DNA of 64,000 bases. It comes from Hymenobacter sp. HSC-4F20. GTDB lineage: Bacteria; Bacteroidota; Bacteroidia; Cytophagales; Hymenobacteraceae. Under the pieces are notes generated by a model. It searched no databases and had not been told where the DNA came from. It saw nothing but the letters and a program-made list of their open reading frames with translations. The stretch spans positions 496,001 through 560,000 of the forward strand of contig NZ_JAHZTD010000003.1 of the NCBI RefSeq assembly GCF_019599275.1, read 5' to 3'. The position numbers and the translations under genes are program-made. How positions within the stretch are numbered: position 1 is the stretch's first letter; every line of letters starts with the position of its first letter. This document shows positions 31,231 through 55,486 of the stretch, in pieces.

Positions 31231-31656
31231 CTAATCTTGGCCTAAATAAAAAAACGCACCATTTTTCTTATTCACATACCCAAACTGAGTGTTATTATAA
31301 GTTATAGATATAACCTCTTCATTTTTATCAAACCCTTCAATTTTCTTTTTTAAAATATTACAATATATACAACGCTCAAAATTAAAGCTCACTATTATTG
31401 GCCTCACAACTCTATACATCTGTGTTTTACTTTGTTTATGTGGATCCGTTTTCCATTTTACTTTCCCATTACTACCAATTGCGGTTATATATACTCTAGT
31501 TGAGTCCAGAATATACTTTGTTCCATCTTTTTTGTCAATTAGAAATAACTGCTTTGGTTTGCCATTTAGTGTGGCATGCGCGACATATTGTCTACTTTGC
31601 GCTTTGCAAATATTTACATATATTAAGTATATCAATAGCAAGAGCAGCCTTTTCAT
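31231..31656 (-). CDS. AT-rich secreted orphan protein inside the urease operon
   Basis: A 141-aa product from the ATG at 31654-31656 with a signal peptide ([20 protein letters not shown]). An ATG-less extension to 31677 is less likely. The mature part is Lys/Asn/Ile/Tyr-rich, contains a CIYC motif ([13 protein letters not shown]) and shows no recognised domain. By eye the gene is only about one third G+C, far below its neighbours. It lies between ureAB and ureC in the same direction and stops 11 bp before the ureC start. Recent acquisition is inferred from composition; function is unknown. Confidence 0.75.
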
Positions 31657-43768: not shown

Positions 43769-45037
43769 ATGGCAGTAAACGATACGCTGGAAGGCACCCG
43801 CAAAATTGTGGAAGAGGCCGAGGCGCAGAGACCCAATCTGCACCCACTGGCGCCTTCCGTCAACGACTTTAACCAGGAGCTGACCACGCTCAACCTGGGC
43901 CCTACTCACCCCGCTACCCACGGCATCTTCCAGAACATTCTGCAGATGGATGGCGAGCGGATCGTGACGGGCGTACCCACTATTGGCTATATCCACCGCG
44001 CTTTCGAGAAGATTGCCGAGCGCCGGCCTTTCTACCAGATTACGCCCCTGACGGACCGCATGAACTACTGTTCGTCGCCCATCAACAACATAGGCTGGCA
44101 CATGACGGTAGAGAAGCTGCTGGGCGTGGAAGTGCCCAAGCGCGCTCAGTACATGCGCGTGATTCTGATGGAACTGGCCCGTATTTCGGACCACCTCATC
44201 TGCAACGGCATTCTGGGGGTAGATACTGGGGCTTTCACTGGCTTCCTCTACCTGATGGATGAACGGGAGAAGATTTACGAAATCTACGAGGAAGTAAGCG
44301 GCGCCCGCCTGACCACCAACATGGGCCGGGTAGGCGGTATGGAGCGCGACTTCACCGACGTAGCCATCCAAAAGCTGCGCGCCTGGCTGAAAACCTTCCC
44401 GGCCGTGATGAGCGAGTTCGAGAAGATGTTCAACCGCAACCGCATCTTCATGGACCGCGTGGTAGACGTAGGTGCTATTTCCGCCGAACGGGCGCTGAAT
44501 TATGGGTTCACCGGCCCCAACCTGCGAGCTGCGGGTGTCGACTACGACGTGCGGGTGATGAACCCCTACTCTAGCTACCAGGATTTCGAGTTTGAAATTC
44601 CGGTGGGCACGAAGGGCGACACCTACGACCGGTTCATGGTGCGCAACGAGGAAATCTGGCAGAGCCTGCGCATCATCAACCAGGCGCTGGAAAACCTGCC
44701 CGAAGGTCCTTACCACGCCGATGCGCCGCACTACTACCTGCCGCCCAAGCAGGCCGTGTACAAGAATATGGAAGCCCTCATTTATCACTTCAAGATTGTG
44801 ATGGGCGAGATTGAGGCTCCCGTGGGCGAGGTGTATCACTCGGTAGAAGGAGGCAACGGGGAACTGGGCTTCTACTTGGTTTCCGATGGTGGCCGTACCC
44901 CTTACCGTCTACACTTCCGCCGCCCTTGCTTCATCTACTACCAGGCTTACACCGAAATGGTAACGGGCCAGACGCTCTCCGACGCCATCGTGACCTTGTC
45001 GTCGATGAACGTAATTGCCGGCGAGCTGGACGCGTAG
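43769..45037 (+). CDS. nuoD: NADH-quinone oxidoreductase subunit D
   Basis: A 422-aa 49-kDa-type subunit that, with NuoB, forms the quinone-reduction site. LGPTHPATHGIFQNILQMDG, TPLTDRMNYCSSPINNIGWH, TNMGRVGGMERDFTD and the C-terminal DAIVTLSSMNVIAGELDA (ending near the GExDR-type terminus) identify it. The N-terminus carries about 30 extra residues before the conserved core. It ends 22 bp before nuoE. Confidence 0.96.
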   Translation: MAVNDTLEGTRKIVEEAEAQRPNLHPLAPSVNDFNQELTTLNLGPTHPATHGIFQNILQMDGERIVTGVPTIGYIHRAFEKIAERRPFYQITPLTDRMNYCSSPINNIGWHMTVEKLLGVEVPKRAQYMRVILMELARISDHLICNGILGVDTGAFTGFLYLMDEREKIYEIYEEVSGARLTTNMGRVGGMERDFTDVAIQKLRAWLKTFPAVMSEFEKMFNRNRIFMDRVVDVGAISAERALNYGFTGPNLRAAGVDYDVRVMNPYSSYQDFEFEIPVGTKGDTYDRFMVRNEEIWQSLRIINQALENLPEGPYHADAPHYYLPPKQAVYKNMEALIYHFKIVMGEIEAPVGEVYHSVEGGNGELGFYLVSDGGRTPYRLHFRRPCFIYYQAYTEMVTGQTLSDAIVTLSSMNVIAGELDA

Positions 45038-45059
45038 TTTTTTGCTGAATTTGACTTTT

Positions 45060-45629
45060 ATGGAGACGACTGCCGTCAAGCCGCAATTTTCTGAAGCCGC
45101 CCAGGCTGAAATCAAGCGTCTGCTCACCCACTACCCCGACGACCGCCGGAAGTCGGCTCTGCTACCGGTGCTGCACATTGCCCAGGCCGAGTTCGGTGGT
45201 TGGGTAAGCCCCGAGGTACAGGACCTGGTGGCCGAGGTGTTGGATATCAAGCCCATTGAGGTGTATGAGGTGGCTACCTTCTATACCATGTTCAACCTGA
45301 AGCCGGTAGGCAAGCACGTGCTGGAAATCTGCCGGACGGGCCCCTGCATGCTGCGCGGCTCCGATGAGCTTACGGCTCACTTGGAGCGCATTACCGGCGC
45401 CAAAGTGGGCGGCCCGGCTTCGGCTGATGGTTTGTTCACGTTGAAGGAGGTAGAGTGTCTGGCGGCTTGCGGCTTCGCTCCTATTGTGCAGGTACGCGAG
45501 AAGTACTACGAGCAGCTGGACACCCCGGAAGCCGTGGATGCCATGCTCACGGAGCTGCGCAACCAGGTGCACCGCCCGGCCCTGCCGTGGGAAGAAACCG
45601 GCCTCCCGAATGCGCTGGCTAACAATTAA
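45060..45629 (+). CDS. nuoE: NADH-quinone oxidoreductase subunit E
   Basis: A 189-aa 24-kDa-type thioredoxin-fold subunit with a 2Fe-2S cluster (N1a) near FMN. Ligand cysteines are in EICRTGPCMLRG and VECLAACGFAPIVQV. IKPIEVYEVATFYTMFNLKP is typical. The ATG at 45060 (METTAVKPQFSEAAQAEI) is preferred over the open frame from 45015, which overlaps nuoD. An orphan gene of lower G+C follows after 12 bp. Confidence 0.95.
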   Translation: METTAVKPQFSEAAQAEIKRLLTHYPDDRRKSALLPVLHIAQAEFGGWVSPEVQDLVAEVLDIKPIEVYEVATFYTMFNLKPVGKHVLEICRTGPCMLRGSDELTAHLERITGAKVGGPASADGLFTLKEVECLAACGFAPIVQVREKYYEQLDTPEAVDAMLTELRNQVHRPALPWEETGLPNALANN

Positions 45630-45641
45630 TTGTTTGCGGCC

Positions 45642-45998
45642 ATGGACGAACGAAATAAAGACCTACCGCTGATTGTCTCGGAAATTCTCATTGAGATGCA
45701 CGAGATGAAAGAAGCTCTTAACCGAGTAGCGTCTGTTGTTGTGAAGCAACAGGAGCATATGAATTCTATGTTCAATGTGTTGCTCGATGAGAATAAAAAG
45801 AACGTGTCGTTCATGGCTTCAATAATGGCTGACGCGCGACAGGAAAATATTTCGCTCATTAATGAGGTTCGGCGCGAAGGCGAAGAAGGTCGTCAGTTCA
45901 TGACCTATTCCATCAATAAAGCATTGGGGCAACAGCAGCAGATAAACGCCGCTTTCGAGCAACGTCTGGCTGTGCTAGAAGCGAAATACAACGGCTAA
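45642..45998 (+). CDS. Orphan coiled-coil protein between nuoE and nuoF
   Basis: A 118-aa, highly polar protein from the ATG at 45642. Almost the whole length is predicted helical by eye, rich in E/K/Q/N/M and without Pro or Cys. Heptad-like stretches are ILIEMHEMKEALNRVASVVV and INAAFEQRLAVLEAKYNG, so a coiled coil is likely. No homology to a complex I subunit is recognised. By eye G+C is about 45%, well below flanking nuo genes. It sits 12 bp after nuoE and 12 bp before nuoF, so it must be co-transcribed. It may be an acquired passenger or an accessory factor. Confidence 0.75.
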   Translation: MDERNKDLPLIVSEILIEMHEMKEALNRVASVVVKQQEHMNSMFNVLLDENKKNVSFMASIMADARQENISLINEVRREGEEGRQFMTYSINKALGQQQQINAAFEQRLAVLEAKYNG

Positions 45999-46010
45999 CT
46001 GCCTACTACT

Positions 46011-47351
46011 ATGGGACGCAAACTGCTGACCGAACATATTAACGTTGAAGGCATTAACACCTTTGAGGTATACCGCAAACACGGCGGCTACCGCTCGGTG
46101 GAGAAGGCCCTCAAGACAATGACTCCCGACGAGGTGGTGGAAGAAGTGAAGAAGTCGGGCCTGCGGGGCCGCGGCGGCGCTGGCTTCCCTACTGGTATGA
46201 AGTGGAGCTTCCTGGCCAAGCCCGAAGGGGTGCCGCGCTACCTCGTTTGCAACGCCGACGAATCGGAGCCGGGCACCTTCAAGGACCGGCAGTTGATGTC
46301 GAAGCTGCCCCACCTGCTCATCGAGGGCATGATTACGAGCTCGTACGCGCTGGGCGCCAACACCTCGTACATCTACATCCGCGGGGAGCTGTTGTATGTG
46401 CTGCGCATCCTGGAAAAAGCCATTGCCGAAGCTTACGCGGCCGGTTTCCTGGGTAAGAACATCCTGGGCTCGGGCTACGACCTGGACCTGCACGTGCATC
46501 CTGGTGGTGGTGCCTACATCTGCGGTGAGGAAACGGCTCTGCTGGAATCGTTGGAAGGCAAGCGCGGCAACCCGCGCAACAAGCCGCCGTTCCCGGCTGT
46601 GCAGGGCTTGTACGCCCGCCCCACGGTAGTAAACAACGTGGAGTCTATTGCGGCGGTACCGGTTATCGTGAATGAGGGTGGCGACGAGTACGCCAAGCTT
46701 GGCGTGGGGCGGAGCACTGGCACCAAGCTGATTTCGGCATGCGGCCACCTCAACAAACCCGGCATCTACGAAATTGAGTTGGGCCTTCCCGTCGAAGAAT
46801 TCATCTACTCCGATGAGTACTGCGGCGGCATTTGGAAGGGCCGGGAGCTAAAGGCCGTAGTAGCCGGTGGTTCTTCGGTGCCGATTCTACCCAAGGAGCT
46901 TATCCTAAAAACAGCTGCCGGCGAAAACCGCCTCATGACCTATGAGTCGCTGTCGGATGGTGGTTTCGTAACGGGTACCATGCTGGGCTCGGGTGGCTTT
47001 ATCGCCATGGACGAGACGACCTGCATTGTGCGAAACACCTGGAACTTCTCCCGCTTCTATCACCACGAGTCGTGCGGGCAATGCTCGCCCTGCCGCGAGG
47101 GTACGGGCTGGATGGAAAAGGTGCTGCACCGCCTGGAGCACGGCCACGGCCACATGGAAGATATCGACCTGCTGGTAAGCGTTGCCAAGCAAATCGAGGG
47201 TAACACCATTTGCCCGCTCGGTGAAGCGGCCGCTTGGCCCGTTGCCGCCGCTGTACGTCACTTCCGCCACGAGTTTGAGTGGCACGTGACCCACGCCAAG
47301 GAAGCGGCCCAGCCCGGCGCCGTGTACCGGGCTAATGCCGTGCTGGTTTAA
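46011..47351 (+). CDS. nuoF: NADH-quinone oxidoreductase subunit F
   Basis: A 446-aa 51-kDa-type subunit that binds NADH, FMN and a 4Fe-4S cluster (N3). The nucleotide-binding region is GLRGRGGAGFPTGMKWSF (about residues 53-70), FMN contacts lie in GGGAYICGEETALLESLEG, and the cluster ligands are in HHESCGQCSPCREGTGWM plus the Cys of NTICPLGEAA. Length is normal. It is separated from nuoE by the orphan coiled-coil gene. Confidence 0.97.
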   Translation: MGRKLLTEHINVEGINTFEVYRKHGGYRSVEKALKTMTPDEVVEEVKKSGLRGRGGAGFPTGMKWSFLAKPEGVPRYLVCNADESEPGTFKDRQLMSKLPHLLIEGMITSSYALGANTSYIYIRGELLYVLRILEKAIAEAYAAGFLGKNILGSGYDLDLHVHPGGGAYICGEETALLESLEGKRGNPRNKPPFPAVQGLYARPTVVNNVESIAAVPVIVNEGGDEYAKLGVGRSTGTKLISACGHLNKPGIYEIELGLPVEEFIYSDEYCGGIWKGRELKAVVAGGSSVPILPKELILKTAAGENRLMTYESLSDGGFVTGTMLGSGGFIAMDETTCIVRNTWNFSRFYHHESCGQCSPCREGTGWMEKVLHRLEHGHGHMEDIDLLVSVAKQIEGNTICPLGEAAAWPVAAAVRHFRHEFEWHVTHAKEAAQPGAVYRANAVLV

Positions 47352-50226: not shown

Positions 50227-50739
50227 ATGTCTCCTCTTTTTCTCTTTCTGGCTTTTGTGGCGCTGCTGAGCGCACTAGGGGTAGTATTCGCTAAAAACCC
50301 GGTGCACAGCGTGCTGTTTCTGATTCTGACGTTCTTTGCTTTGTCGGGCCACTACTTGCTGCTGAACGCGCAGTTCCTGGCCGCCGTGAACATCATCGTG
50401 TACGCCGGTGCTATTATGGTGCTGTTCCTGTTCGTGATTATGTTCCTCAATCTGAATGTGGACACGGAGCCGCATAAGCCAGCCTTGGCCAAAATTGCCG
50501 CAGCTGTTGCCGGCGGCTCCTTACTGCTTATCCTGGTTGCGGCCCTCAAGGATGTACGACCCACCGGCGCTGCTCTGGATGCCAGCTTCGACTCGCAGAT
50601 TGGCATGGTAGACCGCCTGGGGTTGGTACTCTATCAGCAGTATTTGCTGCCCTTCGAGCTGGCCTCGGTGCTGTTTCTGGTAGCCATGGTGGGTGCCGTG
50701 ATGCTGGGCAAGCGGGAAGCCGGAGAACGAAACTTTTAG
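50227..50739 (+). CDS. nuoJ: NADH-quinone oxidoreductase subunit J
   Basis: A 170-aa membrane subunit with five helices. The ATG at 50227 (MSPLFLFLAFVALLSALGVV) is chosen; the frame is open from 50014 but overlaps nuoI. The third helix NIIVYAGAIMVLFLFVIMFL contains the conserved tyrosine/pi-bulge region. ELASVLFLVAMVGAVMLGKR is the last helix. The next base run is a strong terminator, and the expected neighbour nuoK is 4.4 kb away. Confidence 0.94.
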   Translation: MSPLFLFLAFVALLSALGVVFAKNPVHSVLFLILTFFALSGHYLLLNAQFLAAVNIIVYAGAIMVLFLFVIMFLNLNVDTEPHKPALAKIAAAVAGGSLLLILVAALKDVRPTGAALDASFDSQIGMVDRLGLVLYQQYLLPFELASVLFLVAMVGAVMLGKREAGERNF

Positions 50740-50758
50740 TAGCCTCTAAAGCACTTGG

Positions 50759-50792
50759 AAAAAGGCCGCTGAATCTTCAGTGGCCTTTTTTA
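50759..50792 (+). terminator. Intrinsic terminator after nuoJ
   Basis: AAAAAGGCCGCTGAA (50759-50773) pairs with TTCAGTGGCCTTTTT (50776-50790) with one wobble pair, followed by further T. It closes the first part of the complex I operon 20 bp after nuoJ. Confidence 0.85.
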
Positions 50793-50808
50793 TTGGGTAC
50801 CTATCAGC

Positions 50809-51123
50809 ATGAAAGATCCTACCCTCACTCCTACTCTCTACGCGGCTTTCACCCAGATAAGCAAATTCGAGCTTATGTGCTTGTTCAAGCATCATGGCTG
50901 GCTTGTTAGGAAATCATCATGGACAGACTACGAGTTGGAAAATGAATGGTCAGCGTTAGAGTTGGATGGGCCAGACAGCGCGCCTCTCCTGCACGGCCTT
51001 ATTCTTTACACTGAGCCGCATTGGATATTCCTAACAGAACTACTCGTACGCCTTGTCTGCCCTTGTCAGGTAGAAGTATACCGGGAAGATGGTATGCTGC
51101 TGTGCGAATACCAACGGGGCTGA
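50809..51123 (+). CDS. Hypothetical protein
   Basis: A 104-aa protein with no signal peptide and no recognised family. YAAFTQISKFELMCLFKHHG suggests a helical N-terminus, and GLILYTEPHWIFLTELLVRL a mixed core. Three cysteines, two as CPC near the C-terminus (LVCPCQVEVY). G+C looks below that of the nuo genes. It is the first gene after the nuoJ terminator and is followed by about 220 bp of AT-rich sequence without a gene. Probably real but unassigned. Confidence 0.5.
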   Translation: MKDPTLTPTLYAAFTQISKFELMCLFKHHGWLVRKSSWTDYELENEWSALELDGPDSAPLLHGLILYTEPHWIFLTELLVRLVCPCQVEVYREDGMLLCEYQRG

Positions 51124-51347
51124 ACAAAGCCCGTGCTTAGTAAATAATAGAACTATCCTTATTTCCTTGCTTCTTAAGTTACCAGTAACGCTGTAAGTTA
51201 TCAGCTGAATTTTATTAATATAATTCAAATTTATACTGCAAAAGGCTAGCAATTTTATCAAAAATATCTAATAGACTTGTACGTCTGCATTCAGGCTGCG
51301 GCAGCTGGATTTAGCTGTGATAGAGACTGTTTTATTAGGTTGGTTCT

Positions 51348-53096
51348 GTGAAGAAGTTGCTTGCCCTCCTACTGGGCTTGCTTGCCTTTCCGGCATGGGC
51401 GCAAACAGGGGTATCATCGTCTGAAACAGCGCCCTGTGACGCCGTGATACAGAAGTTTATGAGCCGCTGGAAGATTCCGGGCGCTTCCGTAGCTATTAGT
51501 CGGCAGGGAAAACTGGTGTATGCCCGCGGCTTCGGTTACGCCGATTTAGCCAAGACCCAGCCCATGACGCCTGCTACCCTGCTACGGGTGGCTAGCGTCT
51601 CGAAGCCGGTAACGTCGGTGGCTATTATGAAGCTGCTGGAGGAAGGACGCCTGAACCTGCAACACAAAGTATTCGGGGCGGACGGCTACCTCAATGATGC
51701 CTACTACACGAGTGTCATCACCGACCCGCGCATTTACGGCATCACGGTGCGGCAACTGCTGGAACACACGGCGGGTTGGAACCGGGACGCCGGGGTAGAC
51801 GGGTTCAGCAGTTCCGACCCCATTGATTTCCCGCTGCATGTGGCGCAGGTAATGCAAGTACCTAATCCGGTGGGCGACTCCACGCTGGTGCGCTACCTGC
51901 TAAGCCGGGGACTAAACTTTACCCCGGGCACCCGCTTTGCCTACTCCAACGTTGGCTACCTGGTGCTCGGCAAGATAATCGAGAAGATAACCGGGCAGCG
52001 CTACGAGGCCTGGGTCCGCCACAGCATTCTGGAGCCGGCGGGCATTCGGGAGGCTCACTTGGGGCACAACCTGCGCACGGCCAAACTGGAAAACGAGGCG
52101 GAGTACTTCTGCCCAGCTACTGGCGAGTCGTGCTACGGTACGGGTAAGAAGGTACCGTATGCGTATGGCGGGGCTAACCTGGAGGCCATGAATGCTCACG
52201 GCGGCTGGCTGTTTACAGCCCGCGACTTGGTGCGCCTGCTACTGGCCGTCGATGGCTCGCCTACCCGCCCCGATATTCTGCTACCAGCAACCCTGGACAC
52301 GATGACGGCGCCGTCGGCTGAGGCCCGGCGCTACGCCAAGGGCTGGATGGTCAGCAAGCACGGCTTATGGTGGCATACGGGCTGCCTCAACGGCTCCACC
52401 AGCCTGGTAGCCCGCACAGCCGAGGGTTACACCTGGGCCATTTTGTTTAATGCCTGCCCCAACACGACCCGCTTCTGGAACGACGTGGAAGAATTGGGCG
52501 GGAACTGCGTGAAGAGCAGTACCATGTGGCCCTCCTACGACCTGTTTCCACCCGAGCAACATGCTACCCGCCTGCGGGTGGCCCACACCAACGCCAAATC
52601 TGCTACGCTTACCTGGGCCAACGGCAACGGCACCCACCGGTTGGTAGTGCTGCGCGAGGGTGCCCCGGTGAATGCATTTCCACTGGAAGGTCAGTTGTAC
52701 GCCGGCGGCCGCACCTTCGGGCACGGCGCTAGCCTGGGGCAGGGAAATTACGTGGTAGCCGCCGGCCCAGACAGCAGCGTGCAGGTAACGGGGCTGCTGC
52801 CGGGCCGCACCTATTACGCCCGCGTGATGGAATACCGACTGAACGAGGAAGCCCGGATGCAGCCGGTCTACTCGTTCGATGGTAACCCCGAACTGCACTT
52901 TCGCCTGTCCGAGGCCGCGCCGGTGGCTAAGTCACGGCTGACCAACCGCAGCAAGGCAGTGGCCAGTAAAACCCGCCTGAAAAAGCCTGCTGCTCCCGCG
53001 GCCACCAATCCGGCCTTTCCGCCTGCACCGGCTACCGCAACACAGGCTTCTTATCTGGGCCGCTTACGCTCCTTTCTAAGCTGGCGGAAAGGGTAG
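51348..53096 (+). CDS. Secreted serine hydrolase, class C beta-lactamase-like
   Basis: A 582-aa protein with signal peptide (MKKLLALLLGLLAFPAWA, from the GTG at 51348). The penicillin-binding/beta-lactamase fold domain shows WKIPGASVAISRQGKLVYAR, the nucleophile motif SxxK in ASVSKPVT and YxN in YSNVGYLVLG. The third motif is less clear, with GLWWHTGCLNG as the probable equivalent (HTG). A C-terminal FN3-like module (about 395-530, ATLTWANGNGTHRLVVLREG, GLLPGRTYYARVMEY) and an Ala/Pro/Lys-rich tail follow. Likely a periplasmic esterase, D-peptidase or similar; true beta-lactamase activity is not implied. Confidence 0.85.
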   Translation: MKKLLALLLGLLAFPAWAQTGVSSSETAPCDAVIQKFMSRWKIPGASVAISRQGKLVYARGFGYADLAKTQPMTPATLLRVASVSKPVTSVAIMKLLEEGRLNLQHKVFGADGYLNDAYYTSVITDPRIYGITVRQLLEHTAGWNRDAGVDGFSSSDPIDFPLHVAQVMQVPNPVGDSTLVRYLLSRGLNFTPGTRFAYSNVGYLVLGKIIEKITGQRYEAWVRHSILEPAGIREAHLGHNLRTAKLENEAEYFCPATGESCYGTGKKVPYAYGGANLEAMNAHGGWLFTARDLVRLLLAVDGSPTRPDILLPATLDTMTAPSAEARRYAKGWMVSKHGLWWHTGCLNGSTSLVARTAEGYTWAILFNACPNTTRFWNDVEELGGNCVKSSTMWPSYDLFPPEQHATRLRVAHTNAKSATLTWANGNGTHRLVVLREGAPVNAFPLEGQLYAGGRTFGHGASLGQGNYVVAAGPDSSVQVTGLLPGRTYYARVMEYRLNEEARMQPVYSFDGNPELHFRLSEAAPVAKSRLTNRSKAVASKTRLKKPAAPAATNPAFPPAPATATQASYLGRLRSFLSWRKG

Positions 53097-53116
53097 CACC
53101 GTACCCAATACCGGCA

Positions 53117-53149
53117 GCAAAAAGCCCCGGCACTGCCGGGGCTTTTTGC
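53117..53149. terminator. Bidirectional terminator
   Basis: GCAAAAAGCCCCGGC (53117-53131) and its exact complement (53135-53149) around a 3-nt loop; A5 and T5 runs serve the convergent genes on both sides. Confidence 0.9.
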
Positions 53150-53162
53150 TGCACTAGCAGGA

Positions 53163-53528
53163 CTAGCTTACGTCTTCGGTCGTGCGGCGCCGCATCCAGG
53201 CGGGGCCACAGGCACCCTGCATTTTCTGGCGGAAGCGCTCCTGCTCCTCCGGCGTCAGGCCGGCCATGCGGGACTCCATCTTCTGCTTCCAGATGCGCCG
53301 CCGCCGGGCCCAGGCTCCACTGCGGCCACCACGGCCCCAGCCACCAAACAAAATACGGGAAAGCACCAGCAACCCAATGGTTTGCCAGAATGTGATAAAA
53401 GGGCCGTGAAACAGTTCAGGCACCAGCCAGTTCCACAGATTCATGGTGAGGTAGCCGGCCGCGGCCACGAACAGGCTGGCGAAGAGAATAAATTTAAGGC
53501 CGCCAAGCAGCCAGAAGGAGCGGTTCAT
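53163..53528 (-). CDS. Small membrane protein next to ECF sigma factor
   Basis: A 121-aa protein from the ATG at 53526-53528 with two hydrophobic helices (about residues 7-30 and 42-62). A Gly/Arg-rich stretch (GGWGRGGRSGAWARRRR) and a charged tail with MESRMAGLTPEEQERFRQKM follow, the latter reminiscent of CpxP/heavy-metal-sensor type helices. It lies 67 bp after the sigma-factor gene on the same strand and may be co-transcribed. A role in regulating the sigma factor is only suggested by position; no anti-sigma zinc motif is present. Confidence 0.65.
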   Translation of the reverse strand: MNRSFWLLGGLKFILFASLFVAAAGYLTMNLWNWLVPELFHGPFITFWQTIGLLVLSRILFGGWGRGGRSGAWARRRRIWKQKMESRMAGLTPEEQERFRQKMQGACGPAWMRRRTTEDVS

Positions 53529-53595
53529 GGGAAGTAGTAGCTTGCTGGGAAGAAGAGCACCGCCGACGGCAGCCAGGCTTCTTTCTATCAAATGA

Positions 53596-54198
53596 TTAAT
53601 CGGTAAACAGCTCGGTGTAGAGCGTTTGCAGGCGTTTGCGCAGGTGCTGCACGGCGTAGTGCTTGCGCGAAATCAGGGTTTTGAGCGGCGTGCCGGTTTC
53701 CTCCTCCATTTCGCGGAAGGTTTTGTCTTCCAGCTCGTGCCAGATGAATACTTGGCGCTGGGCGGCGGGTAGCTCGGCCAGCGCATCGGCTAAGGCTTCC
53801 ATCAGCGTTTCGCGGAGCAGGCGGTTTTCCGGGGCATCGTCGGCGGCAGGCAGAATGTCGGCCAGCAGCAGAGAGTTGTCCTCGTCATCATAGCCACGCA
53901 CCAACTCCTCTTCCAGCGAGGAGGGGCGCTTCCGTCGGTAGAGGTCCGTAATTTTGTTGCGCGCCACCCGAAACAGCCAGGCCGCTGCCTGCTCCACGGG
54001 CTTGAGCATACGGTAGCTCTCAACCAGTTCGGCGAAAACGTCCTGCAGTACGTCCTCCGCCTCGGTTTCATCAGGAATGCGGCGACGGATGAAGGCCAGC
54101 AGCCGGCCGCGCTGGGTGCGCACGGCTTCCTGAATTTGCAGGTCCTGGTGGCCAGCCGTCATCAGCGAAGCGTCGAGGGGTAATACGATAGGTTCCAT
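53596..54198 (-). CDS. ECF-type RNA polymerase sigma factor
   Basis: A 200-aa alternative sigma factor. Region 2 is visible as EAEDVLQDVFAELVESYR with AAAWLFRVARNKITDLYRRK (about residues 46-90). Region 4 is LPAAQRQVFIWHELEDKTFR and EMEEETGTPLKTLISRKHYA (about 140-185), with an acidic linker between. It would redirect RNA polymerase to a small regulon. The neighbouring membrane protein may be its partner. No classical anti-sigma gene is seen. Confidence 0.9.
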   Translation of the reverse strand: MEPIVLPLDASLMTAGHQDLQIQEAVRTQRGRLLAFIRRRIPDETEAEDVLQDVFAELVESYRMLKPVEQAAAWLFRVARNKITDLYRRKRPSSLEEELVRGYDDEDNSLLLADILPAADDAPENRLLRETLMEALADALAELPAAQRQVFIWHELEDKTFREMEEETGTPLKTLISRKHYAVQHLRKRLQTLYTELFTD

Positions 54199-54420
54199 TC
54201 TGCTCCGACAGACGCGGGAGCAGGTAAAATACTTTAGGCTAGGTAGAAATTATTTCGGAACCGGCTCCCTACCTGTCATCCCGATTGGAGGCGAAGCATC
54301 CTATGCGAATGCTCCCCAGGGCCCGAGGCAGATTCCAGCTGGCACCTCAGGGGTTACCCACCTTATATGCAGGGGTCTGTCCTCTCGCCCGGAAGCATAA
54401 GGAAACCGCCAGCAGCAGGA

Positions 54421-54882
54421 TTATACGAAATGGTACAGGAAGGTGATGACGCCCGTGTAGGCGGGCTTGCGGCTGCCTTCTACTTCTAGGGTTACCTCAA
54501 TGCGCGCCTTGGCAATGCCGCGTAGGTCCTTCACCGATAACAGCTTAGCCCGGAGCCGCACCTGGCTGTCGACGGTCACAGCTTGGTTGAAGCGCAGGCT
54601 TTCAATTTCGTAGTTCACCTGCATCTTCAGATTCTCAATGGTTATAATCTGGCTCCACAGGTAGGGCAGCAGCGACACGGTGAGGTAGCCGTGGGCAATG
54701 GTAGCTCCGAAGGGCGACTCCGTACCGGCCCGCTCTGCGTCGAGGTGAATCCACTGGAAATCGAGGGTAGCGGCCGCGAACTGGTTGATTTGCTCCTGCG
54801 TGATAATGTGGTAGGCCGAAACGCCCAGTTCCTGGGCTTCGTACTGTTGCAGGTCGGTGAGGCTGCTGATGGTGAGGCTCAT
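54421..54882 (-). CDS. MaoC-like enoyl-CoA hydratase
   Basis: A 153-aa hot-dog-fold protein of the (R)-specific enoyl-CoA hydratase type. The catalytic Asp/His pair is in LDFQWIHLD (DxxxxH), followed by SPFGATIAHGYLTVSLLPYL with the conserved Gly-rich hydratase motif. Usual family length. Predicted to hydrate trans-2-enoyl-CoA in fatty-acid metabolism. On the minus strand upstream, TACCTTCG at 54911-54918 is one base off a TANNTTTG promoter element. Confidence 0.88.
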   Translation of the reverse strand: MSLTISSLTDLQQYEAQELGVSAYHIITQEQINQFAAATLDFQWIHLDAERAGTESPFGATIAHGYLTVSLLPYLWSQIITIENLKMQVNYEIESLRFNQAVTVDSQVRLRAKLLSVKDLRGIAKARIEVTLEVEGSRKPAYTGVITFLYHFV

Positions 54883-55082
54883 GGCGGAGGTAAGAGTGAG
54901 AGTTGGTGGGCGAAGGTACGGCGACTAGGCCGATACGGGTACTGTGGCCTCTGCCCGGCTGGGCCACCGCCGCGCGGTCGGCGTTTTCCTACCTACCTGC
55001 CTTGCCCCGCCTGAGCGAATCATCGTCTTACCGCCCGCGGGAAACGGGTGCATTTTGCCGTGGCGTTTTCCGATTTTCAGGA

Positions 55083-55090
55083 TACCTTTG
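55083..55090 (+). promoter_or_regulatory. Candidate -7 element TACCTTTG for nuoKLMN
   Basis: TACCTTTG, the same octamer as at the nuoA promoter, lies 64 bases before nuoK. The -33 element is not clear (a TTTG lies 25 bases upstream instead of 19). It suggests independent transcription of nuoKLMN. Confidence 0.5.
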
Positions 55091-55153
55091 CCGGCTAGTG
55101 TCCCGGACCTCCTCCGTGAGGAAGGGCATTCTTTTCGCCGTCAGCTCTACCGC

Positions 55154-55486
55154 ATGGACCAGAACATACCGCAGGTTATCCAAACGGTTCCTCTCCAGTA
55201 TTACGTTTTCTTCGCCGCTGCCCTCTTCAGCATTGGCGTGCTCGGAGTTCTTACCCGACGTAATGCCATCATTATCTTTATGTGCGTGGAGCTGATGCTC
55301 AACGCCGTAAACGTCCTACTGACGGCTTTCTCCGCCTACCGCGCCGACGCGAACGGACAGATATTCGTGTTTTTCATCATGGCTGTTGCCGCCGCCGAAG
55401 TGGCCGTGGGCTTGGCCATTATCGTGATGATCTACCGCAACCTGCAGAACACCGACGTCAATCTGTTGAACCGCCTGAAGTTCTAG
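55154..55486 (+). CDS. nuoK: NADH-quinone oxidoreductase subunit K
   Basis: A 110-aa membrane subunit with three helices. MCVELMLNAVNVLLTAFSAY contains the conserved Glu of the proton path, and FFIMAVAAAEVAVGLAIIVM the second one. The ATG at 55154 (MDQNIPQVIQTVPLQYYVFF) is chosen over the long open frame from 54944, which has no similarity. It starts the second block of the complex I genes, downstream of divergent maoC. Confidence 0.95.
   Translation: MDQNIPQVIQTVPLQYYVFFAAALFSIGVLGVLTRRNAIIIFMCVELMLNAVNVLLTAFSAYRADANGQIFVFFIMAVAAAEVAVGLAIIVMIYRNLQNTDVNLLNRLKF

Follow-up and report, generated by a model that had tools for sequence, protein, structure and literature searches.

What is a 118-codon gene doing between nuoE and nuoF, inside the NADH-input module of complex I, in Hymenobacter sp. 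HSC-4F20? We examined this locus in a 64,000-nucleotide stretch of DNA, here called the window, from a genome labelled G000 (genus Hymenobacter, order Cytophagales). The open reading frame (ORF) is genuine, starts with ATG, occupies positions 45642–45998 of the forward strand and encodes a 118-aa coiled-coil protein whose family is dispersed and unnamed. As the original prediction had it, 12-bp gaps lie on both sides: a leader (45630–45641) follows the nuoE stop at 45629 and a spacer (45999–46010) precedes the nuoF ATG at 46011. Both flanking genes, nuoE (45060–45629) and nuoF (46011–47351), are on the forward strand and exceed the cut-offs of the NCBIfam nuoE and nuoF models TIGR01958 and TIGR01959, and the upstream neighbour nuoD (43769–45037, forward strand) is separated from nuoE by 22 bp. 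The prediction offered two readings, an acquired passenger or a lineage-specific assembly or regulatory factor, and our analysis leads to the first: the ORF is probably an accessory coiled-coil gene that rides core operons and acts in trans, rather than a complex I gene.

The lower G+C content reported for the ORF was reproduced, with a GC of 0.455 and a GC3 of 0.534 that place it second lowest of 59 called window ORFs (mean 0.587). The lowest is a 141-aa ORF at 31231–31656 on the reverse strand (GC 0.31). We rejected recent arrival as the source of the low GC: every one of the 28 carriers has an ORF below its nuoE and nuoF in both GC and GC3, which makes low GC a lasting feature of the gene. 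Judged from spacing alone, the ORF would be co-expressed with nuoE and nuoF. A sigma-70 promoter scan of positions 45000–46400 found none, a result of little weight because Bacteroidota promoters differ from that type. The claim of an intact operon stands in part, as nuoA to nuoJ resemble one operon but nuoJ and nuoK are about 4.4 kb apart. Named by eye, the nuoJ–nuoK gap (50739–55154) contains a 104-aa low-GC ORF and a serine-hydrolase-like gene together with reverse-strand genes resembling a sigma factor and a dehydratase, and the sigma-factor-like gene is present in seven of eight relatives examined and missing in G070.

An AlphaFold2 monomer model built with 20 sequences predicts a single helix over residues 8–117 (mean pLDDT 93.2, pTM 0.42), in line with the all-helical product first proposed. 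The ORF product carries 14 lysine and arginine residues and 18 aspartic and glutamic acid residues, and is free of cysteine as described; it is not free of proline, since Pro9 is present and is invariant in a 30-row family alignment. Hydrophobicity peaks at a period of 3.54–3.60 in all seven copies tested; in each case no more than 2 of 500 shuffles did as well. Two parts can be told apart along the helix. The conserved head motif DLPLIVSEILIEMH spans codons 7–20 (45660–45701, forward strand) and covers the helix cap and first turns; in the form DLPLxxSEIxIE it is near-invariant in nuo-linked copies and largely common to genus paralogues at other loci. The coiled-coil tail (codons 21–118, 45702–45995, forward strand) is variable, and its length changes in steps that are mostly in phase with the helix: indels between similar copies are mostly of 3–4, 7, 11, 14–15, 18, 21–22, 28–29 or 40 residues, and 145 of 160 gaps of at least 3 residues fall into the helix-phase classes in a tally grouped post hoc from non-independent pairs. 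Such indel lengths would mostly be those expected where helix phase is maintained.

None of the libraries searched gives the family a name. The best Pfam match of the window ORF reached 15.1 bits against a cut-off of 27, the best NCBIfam match 19.2 bits against 253 and the best PHROGs match an E value of 0.038, and PADLOC returned no match for the window ORF at 0.01 and weak matches for five relatives (best E 2.9e-4). A literature search over titles and abstract openings, which gave a partial view of the longer lists, returned nothing on the gene or family. Generic Pfam coiled-coil models such as DUF7310, Tropomyosin and Laminin_II resemble the ORF in describing a long single helix, and among the matches listed family copies fall below the curated cut-offs except for one to an ISL3 transposase (24.0 versus 23 bits, from a copy at the typA site), which we took as spurious. 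We likewise took as generic coiled-coil similarity the 17 PDB matches at E 0.1, mostly to viral fusion protein stalks, and the Pfam, NCBIfam, PHROGs and PADLOC matches, of which the strongest were PHROG 5975 (function unknown), hit by the tail of the copy in G065 (E 5.4e-7), and Exonuc_VII_L, hit by a repeat-rich copy (30.5 bits, under its cut-off of 35.9). A viral, phage or plasmid home was set aside, as profile-derived patterns found no relatives in viral contigs and tblastn with the window protein found none in plasmids and phages at E 0.01, both with limited queries.

We read the nuoE–nuoF junction in 118 of 120 sampled genus genomes, leaving out G154 (no nuoF match) and G156 (contig end). 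The family ORF occupies it in 28 of the 118 and is missing in the other 90, a distribution that favours the acquired passenger of the original prediction. Empty sites have spacers of 1–50 bp (76 genomes), 74–75 bp (4) or 100–126 bp (10), and they occur among very close relatives, as in G072 and G055, which share 99.6% identical NuoF and 20-bp spacers. By eye, the 74–75 bp spacers of G010, G063, G145 and G152 retain a 3′ remnant, the last ORF codons, which counts as one loss because the four genomes form one clade. Three of the 28 copies are damaged: G138 stops after 46 codons, G143 stops after 76, and G051 is without the motif. In G031 and G066, sequence resembling the spacer of related empty sites sits immediately right of the ORF stop, so the ORF lies directly after nuoE, an arrangement that fits a clean insertion or a clean deletion. 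On a FastTree host tree built from nuoE and a portion of nuoF alone, in which 37 of the 119 inner branches have support under 80, and with three empty outgroups, presence of the ORF requires 23 Fitch changes, or 36 losses if it is ancestral. Carriers of the nuoE–nuoF copy occur all over the genus tree, so that the copy is either old with frequent losses or has been regained many times. Among public genomes, 21 named relatives were found, all in Hymenobacter; 20 of them occupy the nuoE–nuoF junction and one is an additional H. caeli copy; the closest is that of H. latericoloratus (94% over the ORF). As a separate observation, the 100–126 bp spacers (G027, G016, G008, G041, G130, G119, G146, G162, G157 and G158) hold repeats like AGCTAACAGCTAACAGC and no ORF.

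Patchy presence, the truncated G138 and G143 copies, the motif deletion in G051 and the one-clade remnant are what a neutral, decaying passenger without function could leave behind, but most comparable pairs have a dN/dS far below 1 and the head is near-invariant over the genus, and we regard that explanation as extremely unlikely. In unsaturated pairs with similar tails, dN/dS of the ORF is 0.014 (G038/G025), 0.050 (G030/G134) and 0.105 (G057/G161), compared with 0.005, 0.035 and 0.006 for nuoF of the same pairs. A higher value, 0.41, comes from G000/G131, a pair with very few synonymous changes; where tails are unlike, alignments are saturated and values reach 0.51. Intact copies thus appear mostly to be kept as protein by purifying selection, and the gene may be one that is often lost and mostly kept as protein while present. 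A family ORF at one place in 28 of 118 genomes, with mostly low dN/dS, is more than chance.

The ORF had been called an orphan, a description overturned by relatives within the genus and beyond. The window ORF has a head like DLPxVVxEIxIE, the feature by which we recognise the family; a head profile of 28 rows, the window copy among them, matches that copy at E 2.3e-17 and, at an E value of 0.01, has matches in 54 of the 120 genus genomes. In G000 the nuo copy alone is convincing, three further matches having E values of 0.9–1.7. Copy counts from genome searches are lower bounds throughout: genus members included, at least 31 of 341 genomes of the order match the head profile at E 0.05 and at least 29 of 291 match a fuller profile at 1e-6, and at least 3 of 395 genomes of the class, the window genome included, match at 1e-8, with up to 15 candidates per genome scored in the fuller-profile search and up to 11 in that of the class. 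Of 14 non-nuo loci listed, 10 adjoin mfd, 2 follow typA and 1 adjoins an rRNA methyltransferase gene, and at the last the downstream neighbour of the mfd site alone is visible; a further 11 listed loci, three of them repeats, again fall at the mfd, typA and rRNA methyltransferase sites. Within the genus, movement between sites looks rare, because genus sites hold their own subfamilies. Outside the genus, copies lie at leuD|leuB (G196, head profile E 1.2e-11), nuoE|nuoF (G088), nuoH|nuoI (G285) and crtY|metK (G184), and less firmly at atpA|atpG (G279) and cysD|cysN (G218). Neighbour assignments for leuD, leuB, nuoH, nuoI, atpA, atpG, metK, typA and mfd each rest on one example above cut-off; the rRNA methyltransferase neighbour is below its cut-off (117 versus 160 bits), and cysD, cysN, pnuC, nadR, kdsA, murD, crtY and the S23-like and RelBE-like neighbours were judged by eye.

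Family members at unrelated loci stand above the decoy background. In a held-out test we scored 14 distant candidates against a control profile, built from 30 Hymenobacter sequences plus 3 of a second genus in the order, with 9,261 reversed ORFs, 14 reversed candidates and 280 shuffles as decoys. Seven of the 14 (G184, G222, G088, G174, G623, G285 and G106) exceeded all decoys, the atpA|atpG copy of G279 was marginal (24.2 versus 23.9 bits), and six did not exceed them: G218, G199, G070, G096, G059 and a coil gene across mfd. On the far side of mfd, L111 (3698–4141) and similar ORFs form a second variable coiled-coil gene ending RLKRLEDEVFRAAS, and this RLKRLEDEVFRAAS-ending gene near mfd was not above decoys in the family test. 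In G199, locus L235 (1–1002) holds a short coiled-coil gene, similar to the one in G174, repeated four times in tandem, with the first copy truncated at the contig end; each repeat unit extends from one stop codon to the next and includes a 33-nt leader.

These placements bear on whether the ORF could be a lineage-specific factor for the assembly, stability or regulation of complex I, its coiled-coil rod docking on the NuoE–NuoF input module. The case for such a factor lies in the nuoE|nuoF position kept in 28 Hymenobacter genomes, in the nuo-operon relatives of G088 and G285, both above decoys, and in low dN/dS in most comparable pairs. Three nuo placements (Hymenobacter, G088 and G285) among about a dozen sites exceed random expectation, and because they do, a nuo link may be real; the outcome of the refuting check proposed at the outset is split, with homologues at unrelated loci (mfd, typA and rRNA methyltransferase) and a nuo association as well, the nuoE|nuoF position being kept over the genus. 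However, the complex I reading is weakened by absence from the junction in 90 of 118 genomes, close relatives among them, where a subunit or factor would be present throughout the lineage, and by genes with the same head beside mfd and typA and a related gene at leuD|leuB; in the cases tested below, moreover, the tail is inherited separately from nuoE and nuoF. We find the assembly or regulatory factor of the original prediction unsupported and consider it improbable. Proteobacterial nuo/nqo operons contain unidentified reading frames, which resemble the ORF as extra genes without an assigned function in a complex I operon, but the present family also occurs in operons unrelated to complex I. 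Operon position is often taken as function, and neighbourhood annotation would mislead for this ORF, which appears to be an independent passenger inside the NADH-input module.

For the favoured reading of an accessory gene acting in trans, the following picture can be proposed. The family consists of short proteins predicted to be all-helical, so far mainly from Cytophagales, each with a conserved N-terminal head of about 20 residues followed by a coiled-coil tail that varies in length; its genes lie in core-operon spacers or beside core genes and are probably expressed with them. Because the head is conserved over unrelated sites while the tail varies, we infer that the copies share a partner to which the head binds, and that the tail self-associates into a rod; the protein would then work in trans, independently of NuoE and NuoF. 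The family may also mark core-operon spacers as landing places for small genes. Operon-borne passenger genes are known; the conserved head combined with exchanged tails is the new part.

Evidence for tail exchange comes from comparisons within the genus. G123 and G029/G148 are sisters in the host tree (support 98/97), and between G123 and G029 the nuoE end is 97% and nuoF 93–95% identical. Across the ORF, the first 20 codons of this pair are 90% identical, and equally close in G123/G037 and G123/G038; identity is 35% over codons 21–40 and 55% over the rest. The tail type of G123 is common to G037 (89%, last part) and that of G029 to G124 (83% and 71%), and G037 and G124, which fall within one clade supported at 100/99, have the same kind of tail break. 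In AU tests of groups picked after tree inspection, with a tail tree that has long branches, host data reject G123+G037 (p-AU 1.4e-50) and G029+G148+G124 (3e-242), and tail data reject G123+G029+G148 (1e-7) and G037+G124 (2e-5). In G000 and G131, the ORF shows differences at 5 of 74 synonymous sites, compared with a dS of 0.39 for nuoE and nuoF (Fisher p 8e-6); the similar stretch enters the first 50 nuoF codons (3/34) and does not extend into the last 35 nuoE codons (12/25.5). The stretch looks like a recombination tract, and by synonymous divergence the tail common to G000 and G131 is more recent than most of the sequence flanking it. The tails of G038/G025, G057/G161 and G030/G134 agree with the host tree. 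Taking these patterns together, swapping of tails between Hymenobacter lineages appears to be the best explanation.

A more specific proposal is that a constant head docks a shared cellular partner and the tail is an exchangeable recognition rod selected for between-strain diversity, which we put forward tentatively and at a low probability. Operons such as nuo would then be safe harbours that maintain expression, and tails would be exchanged through recombination with its anchors in the essential genes on either side. Stated as an account of the gene itself, the tail would determine which copies recognise one another, in self recognition, conflict or defence, and selection would favour tail exchange between strains. 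The unlike tails of the sisters G123/G029 and likewise of G037/G124, the AU rejection of crosswise groupings on host and tail data, and the youth of the G000/G131 tail relative to its flanks all speak for such a specificity gene. Against it, dN/dS is below 1 within tail types with no sign of positive selection, PADLOC matches are absent for the window ORF and weak for the five relatives, the nuo site has no partner gene, and the three pairs with concordant tails fit the host tree, so that on balance we hold it to be rather unlikely. Since the tails of sister species disagree, a recognition role can be tested directly.

Other small genes occupy the same operon. At nuoD|nuoE, an insert of 637–659 bp reading as an MNT-HEPN pair is present in 8 of 117 genomes, and the other 109 have 19–30 bp at this position. 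The carriers are G031, G020, G036, G001, G149, G159, G164 and G157 (loci L002, L009, L022, L073, L156, L167, L190 and L191); Pfam was checked for the pair in two of the eight, G031 and G159, and in some pairs one of the two frames looks broken. MNT-HEPN (MntA-HepT) modules resemble the family ORF as small, patchy genes within the nuo operon, with short spacers elsewhere, but they are two-gene modules with Pfam NTP_transf_2 and HepT-like domains, whereas the ORF is a single gene without an enzyme domain. Because modules of this other kind also use it, the nuo operon may be a good landing place for small modules.

These pairs also raise the idea that the ORF is a small toxin-antitoxin-related or addiction element riding in the operon, for which the G222 family copy, adjoining a protein that matches Pfam Zeta_toxin above cut-off, could likewise be cited. 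At nuo, however, the ORF stands alone between nuoE and nuoF, a single gene without a toxin partner or adjacent toxin and antitoxin genes; co-occurrence with MNT-HEPN is not significant (4/8 versus 24/110, p 0.09), and the other listed loci have mainly housekeeping neighbours. We judge such an element very unlikely, and return to the accessory gene riding core operons as the preferred account.

Similar sites in other genomes of the order carry further small genes. In G113, from another family of the order, two ORFs of 124 and 156 aa lie between nuoE and nuoF (L091, 1101–1935); neither has a Pfam match at E 0.001, and the second looks PIN-like by eye. Four-helix-bundle genes of the S23/IVP type are also short helical genes found in core operons, and differ from the family ORF in sequence; one apparently lies between leuC and leuD in G196. 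The leu operon of that genome (L275, 1243–5981) seems by eye to carry several passengers: a RelBE-like pair ahead of leuC, the four-helix-bundle-like ORF between leuC and leuD, which we take to be of the S23/IVP type, and the coiled-coil family gene between leuD and leuB.
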